Of a stretch of DNA of 29,593 nt, positions 1 to 29,214 are shown piece by piece. The DNA is from Stenotrophomonas raiganjensis (SeqCode). GTDB lineage: Bacteria; Pseudomonadota; Gammaproteobacteria; Xanthomonadales; Xanthomonadaceae. Within the stretch, counting starts at the first letter, position 1; the number at the start of each line of letters is the position of its first letter. Below the pieces are notes generated by a model that saw only the letters and a list, made by a program, of their open reading frames with translations, was not told the origin of the DNA and searched no databases. The stretch lies in contig NZ_JAUTXR010000085.1 in NCBI RefSeq assembly GCF_030658505.1, positions 1-29,593 on the forward strand, read 5' to 3'. The translations under genes were made by a program, and so were the position numbers.

Positions 1-71
1 ACCAGCAGGCCATGCCATCCAGACCGGTCGAGTAGACATGCCAACCAGACAGATCCCAGAGAACTGTCGAA

Positions 72-173
72 GGCGGGGTGGGACCGGTTGCGGGGGCGTG
101 AGCGCCATGGATGGCGCGACCGAGCCTCCACGGACGGATTCACGGCGTCCCCCGCAACCGGACCCACCCCGCC
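72..173 (+). repeat. Variable-arm palindromic element, 52-nt core family, copy A
   Basis: Two 25-nt arms (72-96 and 149-173) are inverted repeats with one mismatch. They flank a 52-nt core (97-148). The core contains the short palindrome GCGCCATGGATGGCGC and matches, at the same length, cores at 27319-27370 (opposite strand) and 27599-27650; 42 of 52 positions agree with the latter. The arms differ from those of the other two complete copies. A matching arm sequence reappears at the right edge of the window. No reading frame here looks coding. Function is unknown; it could form a large stem-loop in RNA or a cruciform in DNA. Confidence 0.8.
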
Positions 174-225
174 ATCCCACGGATAGCCAGCTGTTGCTTC
201 GGCTGTTGCCGTTGCATTGAGCAGG

Positions 226-4465: not shown

Positions 4466-4520
4466 ATCGACGCCATGCGTCGATGGAAAAAGCGCCGGGC
4501 AATGCCCGGCGCCTTCTTTC
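4466..4520. terminator. Bidirectional terminator between gph and btuB
   Basis: A perfect 9-bp stem (4492-4500 with 4504-4512, loop AAT) is flanked by GGAAAAA on the left and CTTCTTTC on the right, so it can serve both converging transcripts. A second perfect palindrome, ATCGACGC-CAT-GCGTCGAT (4466-4484), sits between the gph stop and this stem. Confidence 0.75.
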
Positions 4521-6363
4521 ATTTCGGCTGGTAACGCACGCTCAACTGGTACTCGCGGCCGGGCTGGTTGAACCACGCCACGGTCTCGTAGCGGCGATCG
4601 AACACGTTGGCGGCACGTGCCAGCAGCGTCCACGACGGTGCCAGCGTGTACTCGGCGCGCAGATCCAGCGTGCCGTAACCGCCGACCCTCACCGAATTGG
4701 CCGCGTTGTCATAGCGCTTGCCCGCACCCTGCACGGTCAGCCCGGCGCGGAAGTCGCCAAAGCGGCGGTCGATGTCCAGGCGCGCCGTCTGCTGCGCCCG
4801 GCGTGGCAGCCAGTTGTCGAACTGGGCACTGCCGTGGGTGCGGTTGCGCGGGTCGGTGTAGCTCAGCTGGGCGCTGATGTCGAAGCCGGCCAGCAGCACG
4901 CCACCGGTCAGCTCGGCACCGCGGATGCGCGCCTTCTCCACCTGCTGCATCTTCATCGTGAGTGCGTCGTAGGTGATCAGGTCATCGACGCGGGTTTCGT
5001 ACACGTCCAGGCCCCAGTGCCAGCCCTGGCCCTGCTGCGAAACTCCCAGGTTTGCACTCTTGGATTTCTCTGGATCGAGCGTTCGCACGCCGCTCCACGG
5101 ATCGTACAGGTCGCTGAAAGTCGGTGCCTTGAACGCTGTGCCGTAGCTGGCATTGACGCGCAGGCCGTGGCCCAGTTCCATCGCCCAGCCAACGCTGCCG
5201 GTAGCGTGATTGCCGAACTGCTGGTTGTCGTCGTTGCGTGCGCTGACCTGCAGCTGGTGGCGGCCGAAGCGGCCCTGGTACTGCACGAACACGCCGGTGT
5301 TGCGACGGCTGTCGACGAGGTAGCCCGCGCTGCTGCCATCCAGGTTGTCTTCGCTCCAATCCACGCCGGCACTCAGCAGCTGGCCCTCAGCCATGCCGAA
5401 GTCACCCTGCAGCGAGGCGCTGTTGCGGTGGGTCTGCGCACTGCCAGATATGCCGGGCGCACCGAAGTTGTCCGACTCGTTGTCACTGCGGCCGACGTTG
5501 GCGGTGAACGCCAGGCGTTCGGACGGGGTGTAGCGCACCTTGCCGGCCAGCACCTGCTGGCGGGTCTCCGAGTAGTTGTAGTAGCCGTCGTAGTGGTTCT
5601 TGCCGTCGGCACGCAATGCGCTGCCTTCCACGGTCCACTGGTCGTTGAAGCTGTAGCCGCCGCGCAGGCTCTTGGACAGGTTGCGGTAGCCGTCGCGGTC
5701 GTGCTCGTCGGCAAAGCAGCCTGCGGTGAACACCGAGGAAGAGCCGCGGCAGGCATCGATGCCGTCGGAATGCTGGTAGGCGATATCCGCACCGAACCAG
5801 CCGCGTTCGGTGCCACCACCAATGCCGCCGCTGGCTTCGCGCAGCCCGTTGCTGCCGCCGCCGAGTTGGAAGTGCGGAGCGAAATCACCCTGGTTGCGGC
5901 GGGTGAAAATCTGGATCACGCCACCAATGGCGTCAGCGCCGTACAGGCTCGACTGCGGGCCACGCACGATTTCCACGCGCTCGATCTGCGCCAGCGGCAG
6001 GTCCTGGTACATGGCCAGGCCGAGATCGGCACTGTTGATGCGCACGCCATCGACCAGCACCACGGTGTGGCCCGAGTTGGTGCCGCGCAGGAACAGCGAG
6101 CTCTGCTTGCCCAGGCCGCCGGCATTGGTCAGGTTGATGCCGGCGCGGCCGCGCAGCAGTTCCTGCAGCGAGGTGGCCTGGCTGGATTCAATCTGCGCGC
6201 GGTCGATCACCTGGGCCGGCGCGATGCTGTCCTGCAGGGCGATCGGGGTGCGGGTGGCGGTGACCAGGATCTGGTCGAGTGCGGTGGTGTCATCGGCGGC
6301 CTGGGCCAGCGCGGGCAGGGCGGCCAGCACGGCCAGGGACAGCATTCGGGACTGCAGCTTCAT
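4519..6363 (-). CDS. btuB: TonB-dependent vitamin B12 receptor BtuB
   Basis: This 614-residue outer-membrane receptor imports cobalamin using TonB energy. A signal peptide covers residues 1-22 (MKLQSRMLSLAVLAALPALAQA). It is followed by a TonB-box region (DQILVTATRTP, about 30-40), a plug domain (VIDRAQIESSQATSLQELL; GRAGINL; LFLRGTNS; VVLVDGVRI) and a 22-strand barrel. Length matches BtuB, about 600 residues. The start at 6363 was chosen for its signal peptide and the GGAG ribosome site just upstream; the reading frame extends further but runs into a cobalamin riboswitch. That riboswitch and the neighbouring cobC gene support cobalamin as the ligand. The last residues (SVRYQPK) lack the terminal aromatic residue common in barrel proteins. 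Confidence 0.94.
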   Translation of the reverse strand: MKLQSRMLSLAVLAALPALAQAADDTTALDQILVTATRTPIALQDSIAPAQVIDRAQIESSQATSLQELLRGRAGINLTNAGGLGKQSSLFLRGTNSGHTVVLVDGVRINSADLGLAMYQDLPLAQIERVEIVRGPQSSLYGADAIGGVIQIFTRRNQGDFAPHFQLGGGSNGLREASGGIGGGTERGWFGADIAYQHSDGIDACRGSSSVFTAGCFADEHDRDGYRNLSKSLRGGYSFNDQWTVEGSALRADGKNHYDGYYNYSETRQQVLAGKVRYTPSERLAFTANVGRSDNESDNFGAPGISGSAQTHRNSASLQGDFGMAEGQLLSAGVDWSEDNLDGSSAGYLVDSRRNTGVFVQYQGRFGRHQLQVSARNDDNQQFGNHATGSVGWAMELGHGLRVNASYGTAFKAPTFSDLYDPWSGVRTLDPEKSKSANLGVSQQGQGWHWGLDVYETRVDDLITYDALTMKMQQVEKARIRGAELTGGVLLAGFDISAQLSYTDPRNRTHGSAQFDNWLPRRAQQTARLDIDRRFGDFRAGLTVQGAGKRYDNAANSVRVGGYGTLDLRAEYTLAPSWTLLARAANVFDRRYETVAWFNQPGREYQLSVRYQPK

Positions 6364-6376
6364 GGGGACTCCAGGT

Positions 6377-6396
6377 GCCACGCACGCCCGCGTGGC
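6377..6396 (-). promoter_or_regulatory. Hairpin just upstream of the btuB ribosome site
   Basis: On the minus strand a 7-bp stem (GCCACGC with GCGTGGC) lies between the riboswitch and the GGAG ribosome site at about 6369-6372. No T-tract follows, which favours control of translation over premature termination. Confidence 0.45.
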
Positions 6397-6479
6397 GAAG
6401 GGGAGGAGCCGCGAAGGCAGGCATGCGCCGACGCCGCAGCGCAGGCTGCGGACATCCAGCGCCATGCCCACCGCATCGC

Positions 6480-6679
6480 GACCTGAGGCTTCCGGGCCGG
6501 TCTCCGGGCTTGCCGCCGGGTGGCGCGAGGCCACCGTCCAGGCGCCTTCCCATGCCTGCGGCACAGTGGCGGTGTTGCCTGGAATTGACGTGCTTACCGT
6601 TGCGGGGGCAGCGCCGGCCTGGCGTGGAATCACGCGTCACCGGCTTCCCGTTTCAACCTGCCGGCCAAGGCCGCAGGTC
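6480..6679 (-). promoter_or_regulatory. Cobalamin (AdoCbl) riboswitch controlling btuB
   Basis: Read on the minus strand, the region holds the hallmark segments in order: GGGAAGCCGGTGA (about 6639-6651), the GCCCCCGCAACGGTAA core (6594-6609), and the B12 box AAGCCCGGAGACCGGCC (6495-6511). Closing-stem halves GACCTGCGGC (6670-6679) and GCCTCAGGTC (6480-6489) pair with one mismatch and mark the ends. This is a known class: when cobalamin binds, btuB expression falls. The stretch 6364-6830 contains, besides the riboswitch, the hairpin at 6377-6396, a SMAG palindrome, and no gene. Confidence 0.95.
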
Positions 6680-6718
6680 ACCTGGAAGTGCGCGCAGTCT
6701 ACGGCATCGCAGGCAGCG

Positions 6719-20523: not shown

Positions 20524-20619
20524 CGCAGGGCGTAGGCCCTTGCGTACGAATGTCCTCCGGCGCCGGCCGTTGGCCGTCACCTCCCCCTTTACTTCGTACG
20601 CAAGGGCCTACGCCCTGCG
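20524..20619 (-). repeat. Variable-arm palindromic element, 42-nt core family, copy E1
   Basis: Perfect 27-bp inverted arms (20524-20550 and 20593-20619) enclose a 42-nt core (20551-20592). The core, read on the minus strand, matches 40 of 42 positions of the core at 20723-20764. The arms share no obvious sequence with those of that second copy. It begins 28 nt after the asnB-like stop and might end that transcript. Confidence 0.85.
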
Positions 20620-20708
20620 TTCGGAGTTCGTCGACGCCTCGTTGAAAGGCGCCGCGAGCGCTGCGCTTTTCCTTTCCTGCCGCAAGCCGAGCCTCGTCGG
20701 GGCGGGCA

Positions 20709-20778
20709 GGGGTTTGGGCAAAGTAAAGGAGGAGGTGACGGCCAACGGCCGGCGCCGGGGGACATTTGCCCAGGCCCC
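20709..20778 (+). repeat. Variable-arm palindromic element, 42-nt core family, copy E2
   Basis: Arms GGGGTTTGGGCAAA (20709-20722) and TTTGCCCAGGCCCC (20765-20778) pair along 14 positions, two of them as G-U in RNA. The 42-nt core (20723-20764) starts GTAAAGGAGGAGGTGACGG and contains the hairpin CGGCC-AAC-GGCCG. The orientation is opposite to copy E1. The stretch 20497-20935 holds these two copies and the phasin terminator, and no gene. Confidence 0.8.
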
Positions 20779-24633: not shown

Positions 24634-24667
24634 CGACCGTCTGCCGTTGAGTTCCAGGGGAGTTACC

Positions 24668-27262
24668 GTGTCCTTGCATCGCCGTGCCGTTCTTCCGTTG
24701 CTGCTTGCCGCCGCCACCGCACTGTCCTCGCCGCAGCCGGTGCAGGCACAGAGCGCGTACTTCTTTCCGCAGGTCACCGACGCAGCGGCGTTCGATGCAG
24801 CGGTGCCCACACCGGAGCAGTTCCTCGGCTACCCGATCGGCAGCCGTTACACCCGGCACGACCAGCTGGTGGCGTACTTCCAGGAACTGGCGAAACGCTC
24901 GGACAAGATCAGCGTGCGCGAGATCGGCCGCAGCTATGAAGGCCGCCCGCTGTTGATCGCCACCGTCACCGCTGCAGGCAATCATGCGCGGCTGGAACAG
25001 ATCCGCCAGCAGCACGCGACCCTGGCCGATCCGGCGCAGCCGCGCAGCGCCGCGGGTGACAGCCCGGTGGTGGTGTGGCTGGGCTACAGCGTGCACGGCA
25101 ACGAAACCTCCAGCGCCGAAGCGGCGATGCTGACCGCCTACTACCTGGTGGCCAACCGCAGCGCCGAAACCCAGCAGTGGCTGCAGCAGGCGGTGGTGCT
25201 GTTCGACCCCGCGCAGAATCCGGATGGCCGTGATCGCGCGGCCAACTGGCACAACGCCTGGGCCTCCGACCCTGCCGCGGCCGATCCAGCCGACAAGGAA
25301 CACGTTGAACCGTTCCCGCAGGGCCGCACCAACCACTACTTCACCGATCTCAACCGCGACTGGCTGGCCCTGACCCAGCAGGACTCACGGCCGAAGGTAG
25401 AGGTGTTCCACCAGTGGTACCCGAACGTGCAGATCGACTTCCACGAGATGGGCAAGGACAGCACCTACTACTTCGAGCCCTCGCCGAAGAGCATGCACAG
25501 CCCGTTGATTCCGGCGCCGTCGTACGAGTTCAACAAGACCCTGGCCAAGTACCACGCGCAGGCGCTGGATGCCTTGGGTTCGCTGTACTACACCGGCGAG
25601 AATTTCGACAATTTCTCGCCGGTGTATGGCTCGACCTATCCGGACTTCCACGGCGCAGTCGGCGTCACCGTCGAGCAGGCCAGTTCGCGTGGTCGTGTGC
25701 AGGAATCGGTGAATGGCCTGCTGACCTTCCCGTTCACCATCCGCAACCAGGTAGCTACCGGGCTGGGCACTGTGCGTGGCGCGGTGGCCGAACGCAGCGG
25801 CCTGTTCGACCTGCAGAAGCAGTTCTTCCAGAGCGCGCTGAAGCAGGCCGCGCAGCAGCCGGTGAAGAGCTTCGTGTTCGGTGATGCGCATGACCCGGCA
25901 TTGACCCGTCGCCTGCTGGAACTGTTGCTGCTGCATCGCATCGAGGTGCGCGCGCTGGATCGTGCGGTGACCATCGATGGGCAGCGCTTCGAGGTGGGCA
26001 GTGCCTATGTGGTTCCAGTGCAGCAGGCGCAGTTCCGCCTGGTGCATTCGATCTTTGCCGAGACGCCGCCGATCAAGGGGGATGTGTTCTACGGCAGCAC
26101 CAGCTATGCGATCGCACCGGCCTACGGCGTGGCGTTCGCCGGCAGCCGTAGCCGTATCGAGGGTGGCGCACGCGTGACTGCGCTGCCGGCGGAGCAGGGC
26201 GCGGTGCTGGGTGGCCAGGCCGGATTCGCGTACGCGATCGACTGGCGCGACTACAACGCCGGGCACGCGCTGGCCGCGCTGCAGGGCAAAGGTGTGAGCG
26301 CACGTGCGGCATTCCAACCGTTCACCACCGCGACCGCGCAGGGCGAGGTCAGCTTCGCCGCCGGCAGCCTGGTGATTCCGGTGGCCGGGCAATCGCTGCA
26401 GGGCGCAGCGCTGCTTGAGGCAGTGACGTCCGCCGCGCGCGAGGCGGGCGTACAGGTACATGCGCTGTCCAGCGGCCGCAGCCGCGAAGGCATCGACCTG
26501 GGCAGTGACGGCGTCAAGGCGCTGCGCAAGCCTGCGGTGGCACTGGTGATGGGCGAGGGCGTGGCGGCCACCGAGATCGGCTCGGCCTGGTTCCTGCTCG
26601 ACCAGCAGTTGCAGCTGCCGGCGAGCAAGCTGGACCCGCAGCAGCTCGGGAAGGTTCCGTTGGATCGCTACACCACCATCGTGCTGTCAGGCGGCACCTA
26701 TGCCGCCGTGGATGCATCGGCGGTGGCTGCATTGAAGCGCTGGGTGCAGGCCGGTGGCTCGCTGGTGACCTACGGCAGTGCCTCGAAGTGGGCGATCGAA
26801 CAGAAGCTGGCCGACGGCGAGAAGCTCGGCAAGGAAGAGGATGCCACTGACGAAAACCGCCGCGCGTTCGGCGACCAGCGCGATATCGCCGCGATCGAGC
26901 GGGTCAGCGGCAACATCCTCAGCGCCGACGTTGATACCAGCCACCCGCTGGCGTTCGGTGTGCCGCGTCGGCAGCTGGCGATCAACAAGGAGAACACGGT
27001 GACGCTGCAGCCGAGCGCGAACCCGTTTTCCACGGTGGTGCGCATCGACACGCCGCCGCGGGTGAACGGTTACCTGTCCGAGCGCAACCGTGCGCGGGTG
27101 GCGGGCAGCGCATGGCTGCTGGTGTCGGCACAGGGGCAGGGCAATGTGGTGCTGTTTGCCGATGACCCGGCGCACCGCAAGTACTGGCACGGGACGGATC
27201 GACTGCTGATCAACGCGATCTTCTTCGGGAATCTGGTGAATCCGAGTAAGGCGCGGGGTTGA
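24668..27262 (+). CDS. Secreted M14-family zinc carboxypeptidase
   Basis: This 864-residue protein has a signal peptide at about residues 1-27 (ending PVQAQ). The M14 catalytic domain spans about 55-400: zinc ligands H143 and E146 in SVHGNETSSAEA, NPDGRDR near 184-190, third ligand H259 in IDFHEMG, and catalytic glutamate E336 in GVTVEQASS. The long remainder (about 400-864) has a glutamine-amidotransferase-like flavour (IVLSGGTYAAVDASAVAALK; FADDPAHRKYWHG), as in large secreted M14 enzymes of this order. The start is GTG at 24668, with AGGGGAG six bases upstream. It is probably co-transcribed with the receptor. Inferred role: trimming of peptides for uptake or nutrition. Confidence 0.92.
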   Translation: MSLHRRAVLPLLLAAATALSSPQPVQAQSAYFFPQVTDAAAFDAAVPTPEQFLGYPIGSRYTRHDQLVAYFQELAKRSDKISVREIGRSYEGRPLLIATVTAAGNHARLEQIRQQHATLADPAQPRSAAGDSPVVVWLGYSVHGNETSSAEAAMLTAYYLVANRSAETQQWLQQAVVLFDPAQNPDGRDRAANWHNAWASDPAAADPADKEHVEPFPQGRTNHYFTDLNRDWLALTQQDSRPKVEVFHQWYPNVQIDFHEMGKDSTYYFEPSPKSMHSPLIPAPSYEFNKTLAKYHAQALDALGSLYYTGENFDNFSPVYGSTYPDFHGAVGVTVEQASSRGRVQESVNGLLTFPFTIRNQVATGLGTVRGAVAERSGLFDLQKQFFQSALKQAAQQPVKSFVFGDAHDPALTRRLLELLLLHRIEVRALDRAVTIDGQRFEVGSAYVVPVQQAQFRLVHSIFAETPPIKGDVFYGSTSYAIAPAYGVAFAGSRSRIEGGARVTALPAEQGAVLGGQAGFAYAIDWRDYNAGHALAALQGKGVSARAAFQPFTTATAQGEVSFAAGSLVIPVAGQSLQGAALLEAVTSAAREAGVQVHALSSGRSREGIDLGSDGVKALRKPAVALVMGEGVAATEIGSAWFLLDQQLQLPASKLDPQQLGKVPLDRYTTIVLSGGTYAAVDASAVAALKRWVQAGGSLVTYGSASKWAIEQKLADGEKLGKEEDATDENRRAFGDQRDIAAIERVSGNILSADVDTSHPLAFGVPRRQLAINKENTVTLQPSANPFSTVVRIDTPPRVNGYLSERNRARVAGSAWLLVSAQGQGNVVLFADDPAHRKYWHGTDRLLINAIFFGNLVNPSKARG

Positions 27263-27296
27263 GGCGTTTGGCGCCTTGACTGATGCGTGTGGGGGC

Positions 27297-27392
27297 GGCC
27301 GGGCGGGCTGCGCAGTACACGCCGTAAACCCGTCCTTGGGGGCTCGATGGCGCCATCCTTGGCGCCAACGGTCCTGCGCAGCCCGCCCGGCC
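27297..27392 (-). repeat. Variable-arm palindromic element, 52-nt core family, copy B
   Basis: Arms 27297-27318 and 27371-27392 pair over 22 positions with one mismatch. The core 27319-27370 is exactly 52 nt and, read on the minus strand, agrees with copy C at 44 of 52 positions. The arm sequence differs from copies A and C. It lies just after the M14 peptidase gene. Confidence 0.85.
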
Positions 27393-27449
27393 TCCCCAAG
27401 ACAGTTTCCAGCGGGCGCGGACGCGTCAGACCCCAAGGCGGGAGCGAGG

Positions 27450-27551
27450 GCAAAAGCAAAAGCAAAGCCAGGAATTGCGACTTCGGCTTTTGCCTTTGAA
27501 TTTGAATTTGAATTTGATCTTTCTTCTCCCGGCTACCCGGCGGGAGAAGAA
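27450..27551. repeat. Low-complexity block with short tandem repeats and a hairpin
   Basis: CAAAAG units (27450-27466), nearly four tandem TTTGAA units (27495-27517), and an 11-bp hairpin TTCTTCTCCCG/CGGGAGAAGAA (27521-27531 with 27541-27551). The first part also pairs imperfectly with GGCTTTTGCC nearby. The A+T-rich sequence contrasts with the genome. No gene is seen anywhere in 27263-27798, which otherwise holds copies B and C and the rhlE terminator. Confidence 0.6.
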
Positions 27552-27570
27552 GGCGCAGGCAATGCTTGAA

Positions 27571-27678
27571 GCGGATGGGCATGGGGGCAGCGCAGAACCG
27601 TTGGCGCCATGGATGGCGCCATCGAGCTTACATGGACGTATTTACAGCGTGTTCTGCGCTGCCCCCATGCCCATTCGC
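27571..27678 (+). repeat. Variable-arm palindromic element, 52-nt core family, copy C
   Basis: Arms 27571-27598 and 27651-27678 pair across 28 positions with a single G-T. The core 27599-27650 is exactly 52 nt and includes the perfect palindrome GGCGCCATGGATGGCGCC. It is in opposite orientation to copy B, 178 nt away. Confidence 0.88.
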
Positions 27679-27723
27679 CCTCGGTACTGCCACCGCGTGC
27701 TTTATCACCCGGTAGCCCGCAAC

Positions 27724-27798: not shown

Positions 27799-29214
<1,416 letters not shown>

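Follow-up and report, generated by a model that had tools for sequence, protein, structure and literature searches.

A high-copy palindromic repeat of Stenotrophomonas and other Gammaproteobacteria, most likely a TwoAYGGAY variant with paired putative CsrA/RsmA sites

Three palindromic elements (A, B and C) in a 29,593 nt stretch of the Stenotrophomonas raiganjensis genome (contig NZ_JAUTXR010000085.1; hereafter the window) most likely belong to a gammaproteobacterial variant of TwoAYGGAY that is present in high copy number, mostly as divergent pairs, and would act as paired CsrA/RsmA sites in RNA. From comparative sequence analysis, the probability that the palindromes are RNA modules of the TwoAYGGAY kind, with putative CsrA/RsmA sites that act jointly as decoys or at 3′ ends, is put at about 0.64. 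The pairing of the arms is itself maintained, and the sequence of the stem that they form is nearly free.

Architecture of the three copies

Each copy is composed of a 52 nt core between two 26 nt arms (Table 1). The cores of A and B share 43 of 52 positions, those of A and C 42 and those of B and C 44 (81-85%), which agrees with the exact 52 nt core and 80-85% identity reported in the preliminary description. The arms are, as also stated there, almost perfectly complementary within each copy, with 24/26 Watson-Crick pairs in A and in B, and 25/26 plus one G-U pair in C. The further claim that the arms of different copies are unrelated holds for A, as comparisons of a left arm with the right arm of another copy give only 8-10/26 pairs for A with B or C. 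However, it is too strong for B and C because their left arms are identical at 18/26 positions, including 8 of the inner nine bases, and this accounts for the 17-18/26 pairs formed between these two copies.

Table 1. Positions in the window of the three elements, their hairpins and adjacent features. R1 is the covariance model described below.
Feature	Position	Strand	Details
Copy A, whole element	71..174	+	left arm 71-96, core 97-148, right arm 149-174; R1 match 89-156, 89.7 bits
Copy A, hairpin P2	102..117	+	GCGCC-ATGGAT-GGCGC; covariation
Copy A, hairpin P3	124..146	+	lower GCC/GGC, apical TCC-ACGGAC-GGA; sequence and covariation
Flanking gene, Peptidase_M14 domain	24647..27262	+	3′ end toward copy B
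Copy B, whole element	27293..27396	-	5′ arm 27371-27396, core 27319-27370, 3′ arm 27293-27318; R1 match 27311-27378, 85.2 bits
Copy B, hairpin P3	27321..27343	-	loop AAGGAC; sequence and covariation
Copy B, hairpin P2	27350..27365	-	loop AAGGAT; covariation
Spacer of divergent pair B/C	27397..27572	.	alignable among this locus and 9 congeners
Copy C, match to TwoAYGGAY (RF01731)	27564-27685	+	36.7 bits, cut-off 43
Copy C, whole element	27573..27676	+	left arm 27573-27598, core 27599-27650, right arm 27651-27676; R1 88.4 bits
Copy C, hairpin P2	27604..27619	+	loop ATGGAT; covariation
Copy C, hairpin P3	27626..27648	+	TAC-ATGGAC-GTA; sequence and covariation
Flanking gene, DEAD-box helicase	27799..29214	-	3′ end toward copy C

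Four sites in the window have at least 22/26 pairs at a 52 nt spacing, namely A, B, C and a different palindrome at 20546, and no comparable palindrome was found in 20 first-order Markov windows. The other palindrome (20524-20619) is nested, with perfect 27 bp arms flanking 42 nt, and is overlapped by one at 20549-20766 in which 46 nt arms, 96% complementary, flank 126 nt. Elsewhere in the window, a Cobalamin riboswitch (6478-6700, minus strand, 91.8 bits) overlaps the called start of a gene at 4519-6633 (minus strand) that appears by eye to be TonB-dependent receptor-like.

Structure of the core

The core folds into two hairpins, P2 and P3, on the long outer stem P1. In copies from this genome the loop of P2 is AUGGAU, and P3 consists of a lower stem GCY/RGC, an apical stem CCC/GGG, UCC/GGA or UAC/GUA, and the loop ANGGAY. 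In an ungapped alignment of 48 copies from S. raiganjensis, 18 of the 23 pairs vary on both sides, and 96.4% of the cells are paired, versus 75.6% after shuffling and at most 50.1% for slid structures. For 42 distinct sequences from other genomes, in an alignment fitted to the model, the figure is 98.1% (slid structures at most 47.4%), again with 18/23 pairs varying on both sides. Covariation is seen in all four helices.

Both loops read CANGGANG in the 96 ungapped matches from other genomes, with 92-96 sequences agreeing at each fixed position and a mixture of bases at each N. The counts, which were not conditioned on GGA, are C93 A93 N G96 G95 A94 N G92 for P2 and C95 A93 N G94 G96 A93 N G93 for P3, where for loci L167-L246 P3, though not P2, was partly fixed by the search pattern CANGGAYG. 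Within S. raiganjensis the P2 loop is ATGGAT in 47/48 copies, and the first N of the P3 loop is mixed. P3 fits ANGGAY in nearly all copies, the second base being Y in 20/48 copies from this genome and 44/96 from others, and often G or A instead. GA/GA is found by eye at alignment columns 12-13/30-31 in a minority of copies, and standard pairs are absent there in 15/48.

In silico, P3 is weak on the strand that carries the loops (the loop strand), with a mean pair probability of 0.18 in this genome and 0.26 elsewhere; on the antisense strand the corresponding values rise to 0.51 and 0.43. The minimum free energy folds of A, B and C are unlike the covariation structure. Outside the Xanthomonadaceae, the outer ends of the stem often read A-G ... 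C-G, leaving an A/G mismatch beyond the last pair (for example in L235, L188, L231, L121 and L123; by eye).

Copies in the S. raiganjensis genome

A pattern search of the genome returned 90 copies, and the reversed control none. R1, a covariance model of 68 positions built from 48 of the genome's copies, gave at least 148 matches at E<=0.01 (150 candidates scored), a count in which repeats at contig ends may have been included twice. The extracted stretches hold 108 copies, 99 of them with full flanks; when G-U is included, 81 of the 99 form at least 20/26 arm pairs and 12 fewer than 14. Those that pair most poorly include some into which another sequence has inserted, some located at the end of a contig, and one divergent pair on contig C180, at 19173 (minus) and 19438 (plus), with exchanged arms, such that each left arm pairs with the right arm of the other copy. 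This is as expected from, and suggests, an inversion between the two cores. A filter for interruptions removed 3 of the 108 copies, and four copies interrupted by an insertion sequence stayed in the resulting set of 105.

The arms in this genome are a mixture, with the common arm GGCGGGGTGGGTCCGGTTGCGGG and its close variants in many copies and copy-specific arms in others (by eye). The copy-specific arms initially described are thus a property of some copies, and strictly locus-specific arms were rejected, as many copies have arms in common. Because copies share arms, a copy's own partner gives the best or tied-best pairing in only 46/99 cases. Most genomic copies neither carry arms that are all alike nor lack complementary arms.

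Maintenance and turnover of the arms

R1 holds only the inner eight arm pairs, and the arms beyond them therefore constitute a blind test. After filtering for length and flanks, which retained 120 of 134 matches in set A4 and 50 of 51 in set A3, 157 distinct matches from other genomes were available. Positions 9-20 of their arms form Watson-Crick pairs in 79% of cases with the copy's own partner, versus 30% with that of another copy, and pairing runs at least 10 pairs past the model in 126/157.

At the locus orthologous to B/C in congeners, the place, the orientation and an alignable spacer are kept, and the arms have sometimes been replaced outright. The spacers of 10 loci (this one and 9 congeners) are 69-99% identical (mean 81%) despite differing arms. 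Watson-Crick-to-Watson-Crick compensations make up 178/242 of the pairwise left-arm differences for B and 327/441 of those for C, in comparisons of 11 B and 12 C copies that exclude the insertion-bearing B of L146, L148 and L154, and in which pairwise counts are not independent. Poorer pairing was seen in B of L145 (20 Watson-Crick, 4 G-U and 2 mismatches), and pairing in C of L146 and L148 is reduced by an apparent one-base indel. The arm types of B and C are not linked across congener loci (by eye). The earlier proposal that pairing itself is maintained is thus upheld by the 81/99 copies in this genome, by the blind test elsewhere and by an orthologous locus that has changed on both arms.

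Mismatches in the arms

A transition in one arm appears as G-U when one strand is read and as A-C when its complement is read, and a palindrome maintained at the DNA level should therefore show both about equally. On the loop strand, the ratio of G-U to A-C is 59:12 in the arms of S. raiganjensis copies, found by a pattern without a pairing requirement, and 44:12 after shared contexts were collapsed (p=2e-5); the paralogous copies are not independent, and one column of the alignment used holds 21 U-G cells. The ratio in other genomes is 168:27 (133 matches with arms of at least 12). As the covariance model prefers G-U over A-C in its eight arm pairs, the pairs outside the model were recounted, giving 142:23, or 78:18 without Xanthomonas and Stenotrophomonas, the genera sampled most heavily. 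G-U outnumbers A-C in 53 loci and the reverse is true of 9, with 30 ties; by taxon group, 32 have more G-U and 5 more A-C, with 15 ties (p=7e-6). No clear strand bias was found in the P2 and P3 stems (4:2 in this genome, 2:6 elsewhere).

From these arm mismatches, the loop strand appears to be a selected RNA stem. Part of the excess could stem from a C-to-T mutation bias of a transcribed strand; such a bias acting on the loop strand would in turn mean that the loop strand undergoes transcription. The preliminary description had offered either selection on an RNA or DNA structure or template switching; the G-U excess narrows this choice and points to RNA of one strand, as DNA-level homogenising is not expected to give such an excess.

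Taxonomic distribution

The distribution was sampled within the Pseudomonadota. R1 matched 48/274 genomes (42/221 genera) of the Gammaproteobacteria sample, 58/248 genomes (9/19 genera) of the Pseudomonadaceae, and 24/349 genomes of the phylum sample, all 24 of them Gammaproteobacteria; 18, 20 and 14 candidates were scored per genome, respectively, with stricter filters, and absences are not proof. One congener and one genome of the same family in the class sample gave no R1 match, so that presence looks patchy. The matches listed by a pattern scan amount to at least 119 stretches at at least 80 loci, and the genera among them include Stenotrophomonas, Xanthomonas, Halopseudomonas, Shewanella, Rheinheimera, Marinobacter, Oceanisphaera and Methylomonas; Yersinia similis is also present. 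The variant found in Pseudomonadaceae is 73 nt and keeps both loops. In six Pseudomonadaceae genomes of 5-7 Mb with this 73 nt twin-loop repeat (L322-L341), R1 gave 15-39 matches in five and 2 in the sixth. A CsrA gene is present in S. raiganjensis. However, co-occurrence with CsrA is uninformative, because CsrA is found in 191/226 genomes without the element as well as in 44/48 with it.

Genomic context

The 3′-side gene is convergent for 57 and co-oriented for 26 of the 105 copies in this genome, and elsewhere for 23 and 9, respectively (43 of 51 matches, with duplicates from the same place omitted); both counts are from crude ORF calls. The mRNA of a convergent 3′-side gene carries the antisense strand, so that transcription of the loop strand would have to start at a dedicated promoter or run in from the gene on the 5′ side. 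The 5′-side gene points toward the element in 41 cases versus 28 in this genome, and in 14 versus 19 elsewhere.

The better surviving alternative, though an improbable one, is a DNA-level palindrome that is mobile or homogenises itself, resembling a REPIN or MITE. In such a scheme the divergent pair would be the mobile unit, a transposase would read the loops in single-stranded DNA and template switching would restore the arms. High copy number and a patchy distribution favour it, as does the arrangement of neighbouring copies (within 600 bp), which are divergent in 28/28 cases in this genome and in 35/46 elsewhere, resembling paired REPs; 6 of the 11 remaining cases are in Xanthomonas arrays. 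The replacement of orthologous arms in place, the insertions found within cores and the exchanged arms at C180, which suggest inversion between cores, fit the same scheme. CTGTC or TGTC directly upstream of the left arm in 68/82 copies from this genome could likewise be the end tag of a mobile unit. However, the TGTC tag was found in 14/18 copies from other Stenotrophomonas, 5/28 from Xanthomonas and 2/84 from others, and a universal end tag was rejected as it is rare outside Stenotrophomonas. Among 72,556 plasmid records, 9 matched the copy C core (68 bases), each only partially and over less than 80% of the query, in a search that could miss divergent cores, and one exact pattern gave 2 stretches in viral contigs; a plasmid-borne or phage-borne repeat was accordingly rejected. 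No clean empty site was seen among the orthologous loci, where those without the element have deletions fused between the arms (L150 and L152) or other sequence (L153, L155 and L158). A DNA process should, moreover, treat G-T and A-C alike, in contrast to the excess of G-U observed.

The likeness to the REP/SMAG and REPIN elements of Stenotrophomonas and Pseudomonas extends to high-copy intergenic palindromes, often past gene tails and in inverted pairs. However, the present element is ∼104 nt with a three-way fold, while theirs is a 20-40 bp palindrome (PMC3733652). Identity with SMAG/GTAG REPs was rejected, as within 12 nt of the arms GTAG occurs upstream in 0/82 copies and downstream in 1/82, and CTAC downstream in 2/82; the lack of GTAG upstream also argues against the mobile palindrome.

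The same insertion-sequence end follows ...GGGTT inside P3 in four copies from this genome (C107:5460, C127:130, C142:23653 and C180:41385), three of them less than 250 bp from a contig end, and at L243:115. At C107 the inserted element carries two frames, a small one with HTH_Tnp_1 and then one with HTH_21/rve, as IS3-type elements do. The repeat may be a preferred target of this insertion sequence. A hairpin-rich secondary insertion with GCAAGACCGGGGTTGGGC is located in the P2 loop of B at L148 and L154 and of the S. raiganjensis copies at C101:233947, C169:359 and C176:87082, and copy B of L146 carries a different insertion, within P3. The spacers between copies in this genome contain repeats bearing GTAG and GGGGTCAG (by eye).

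Relationship to known families

The preliminary description did not recognise the palindromes as a described family. However, the loop strand has the architecture of TwoAYGGAY (RF01731), and the other strand is, in Yersinia, the Rfam family Ysr224. Like TwoAYGGAY, the element encloses a pair of neighbouring hairpins, with A(N)GGA(Y) loops, in an external stem that is present without conservation of sequence. It differs in being a repeat of at least 100 copies, mostly in divergent pairs, and in the P3 loop, where the base after A is often G or A in place of Y. Copy C aligns to positions 1-168 of the RF01731 model, B and A gave no match at E<=5, and all three window copies are under the cut-off of 43 bits and so formally outside the family. 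The S. raiganjensis genome has 5 weak RF01731 matches, none above the cut-off, and matches above it were found in a congener (G277, 1/9) and in the Pseudomonadaceae genomes G486 (49/64) and G434 (17/32). In 4 of 10 genomes bearing the R1 element, RF01731 had no match at E<=0.1. For hairpins of this sort, Rfam scores under the threshold say little by themselves, as models of miRNA hairpins do equally well or better: one outranks TwoAYGGAY over copy C (E 4.9e-5 vs 3e-4), and over copy A many of them match and TwoAYGGAY does not.

Rfam types the TwoAYGGAY entry as cis-regulatory, and its line in the discovery table reads probably RNA, probably not cis-regulatory (Weinberg 2010, PMC2864571). TwoAYGGAY and RsmY are in the same Rfam clan, CL00106. 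For TwoAYGGAY, PMC4333381 notes two strong CsrA-motif matches, a poorly conserved external stem and tandem G-A in one stem, and predicts CsrA binding with Clostridia in mind, validation being then (2014) in progress; two side-by-side CANGGANG hairpins would, by the same account, suit one CsrA dimer. The CsrA consensus is quoted in PMC7937890 as RUACARGGAUGU, and P3 of copy C, UACAUGGACGUA, has UACA-N-GGA-N-GU in common with it. Both hairpins show the feature of a CsrA/RsmA site, CANGGANG in a hairpin loop with N free, though P3 is thermodynamically weak. In P. putida KT2440, according to PMC7937890, RsmA, RsmE and RsmI bind RNAs among which are a 'long palindromic region' and several intergenic sequences associated with ISPpu8, and a relationship of these palindromes to the present element is a lead. 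A link to ISPpu8 via the insertion in four S. raiganjensis copies was dropped, as that insertion has HTH_Tnp_1 and HTH_21/rve frames and ISPpu8 is listed in the IS4 family (PMC3056050, table 2). In the titles and abstract beginnings covered by a literature search, Stenotrophomonas palindromes are nowhere described as TwoAYGGAY.

CsrB, RsmY and RsmZ are sRNAs each encoded by a single gene, which has a regulated promoter and whose product offers many sites. They share GGA hairpin loops with the present element, and RsmY belongs to the clan of TwoAYGGAY, but the element has two sites per module, is dispersed and has no known promoter. The CsrB, RsmX, RsmY and RsmZ models gave no match over the window copies, and the two RsmY matches elsewhere in the genome are both below the cut-off.

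Ysr224 (RF02770) of Yersinia is the antisense strand of the present element, opposite to the loop strand. It scores 126.5 bits (cut-off 70) on the antisense strand of Yersinia similis (L208:7884-7994), overlapping an R1 match, and on the antisense of the window copies 35.1 (C), 29.8 (B) and 23.3 bits (A), all under the cut-off. Several expressed copies of Ysr224 are reported for Y. ruckeri in PMC12112432. The high Ysr224 count that genome surveys give in PMC9029176 may reflect the repeat. It is mainly because Ysr224 is the antisense strand and its copies are reported as expressed in Y. ruckeri that an antisense or two-stranded reading was kept, in which the opposite strand would be the working RNA, either a Ysr224-like sRNA or a 3′-end hairpin that stops transcription or protects the message, and the CsrA motif a coincidence. 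This is less probable still than a mobile palindrome: a convergent 3′-side gene would transcribe the antisense strand, P3 folds better on it and terminator-like repeats of P. fluorescens are known to lie between two gene tails (PMC2718517), but the arm mismatches favour the loop strand (142:23 in unmodelled pairs), a terminator would not need so specific a feature as CANGGANG with free N in each of two hairpins that covary separately, and no U tract adjoins the arms of the window copies (by eye).

Proposed function and significance

If the palindromes are TwoAYGGAY-kind modules, the long outer stem P1 would carry two short hairpins, P2 and P3, each presenting a CANGGANG loop, which is the RNA signature of the CsrA/RsmA family and a predicted docking site. 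P1 would be free in sequence and its pairing under selection, and copies could then differ in their arms, since nothing but pairing counts there. The loop strand would be transcribed, most simply in the read-through 3′ end of a neighbouring gene, and bound by CsrA/RsmA. Jointly, the 100 or more sites per genome would then be dispersed CsrA decoys, or would determine what becomes of the 3′ ends in which they lie.

A wider and more tentative proposal is that at least 100 dispersed two-site RNA modules constitute a genome-wide CsrA/RsmA buffer, in which a propagating repeat became, or exploited, a part of the Csr/Rsm circuit, with arms that diversify fast under selection for pairing, and that the Rsm-bound palindromes of P. 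putida are members. Such buffer modules would be present in many Gammaproteobacteria, intergenic and often beyond gene tails; rapid diversification of the arms may also hinder recombination between copies, and in vivo evidence may already exist unnoticed in the P. putida Rsm pull-downs. CsrA/RsmA activity hinges on how much protein there is relative to its binding sites, and only a few sRNAs are known as decoys. Transcription of 100 or more additional two-site modules would mean that a large term is missing from Csr/Rsm titration models for Stenotrophomonas, Xanthomonas, relatives of Pseudomonas and many marine genera. Compensatory evolution can also be followed in this family with unusual clarity, as in a natural experiment, because dozens of paralogues per genome, and orthologues too, have stems that remain paired as their sequence changes, with a readable strand signature. 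The element would link TwoAYGGAY, Ysr224 and the Rsm-bound palindromes of P. putida, which have so far been filed apart.
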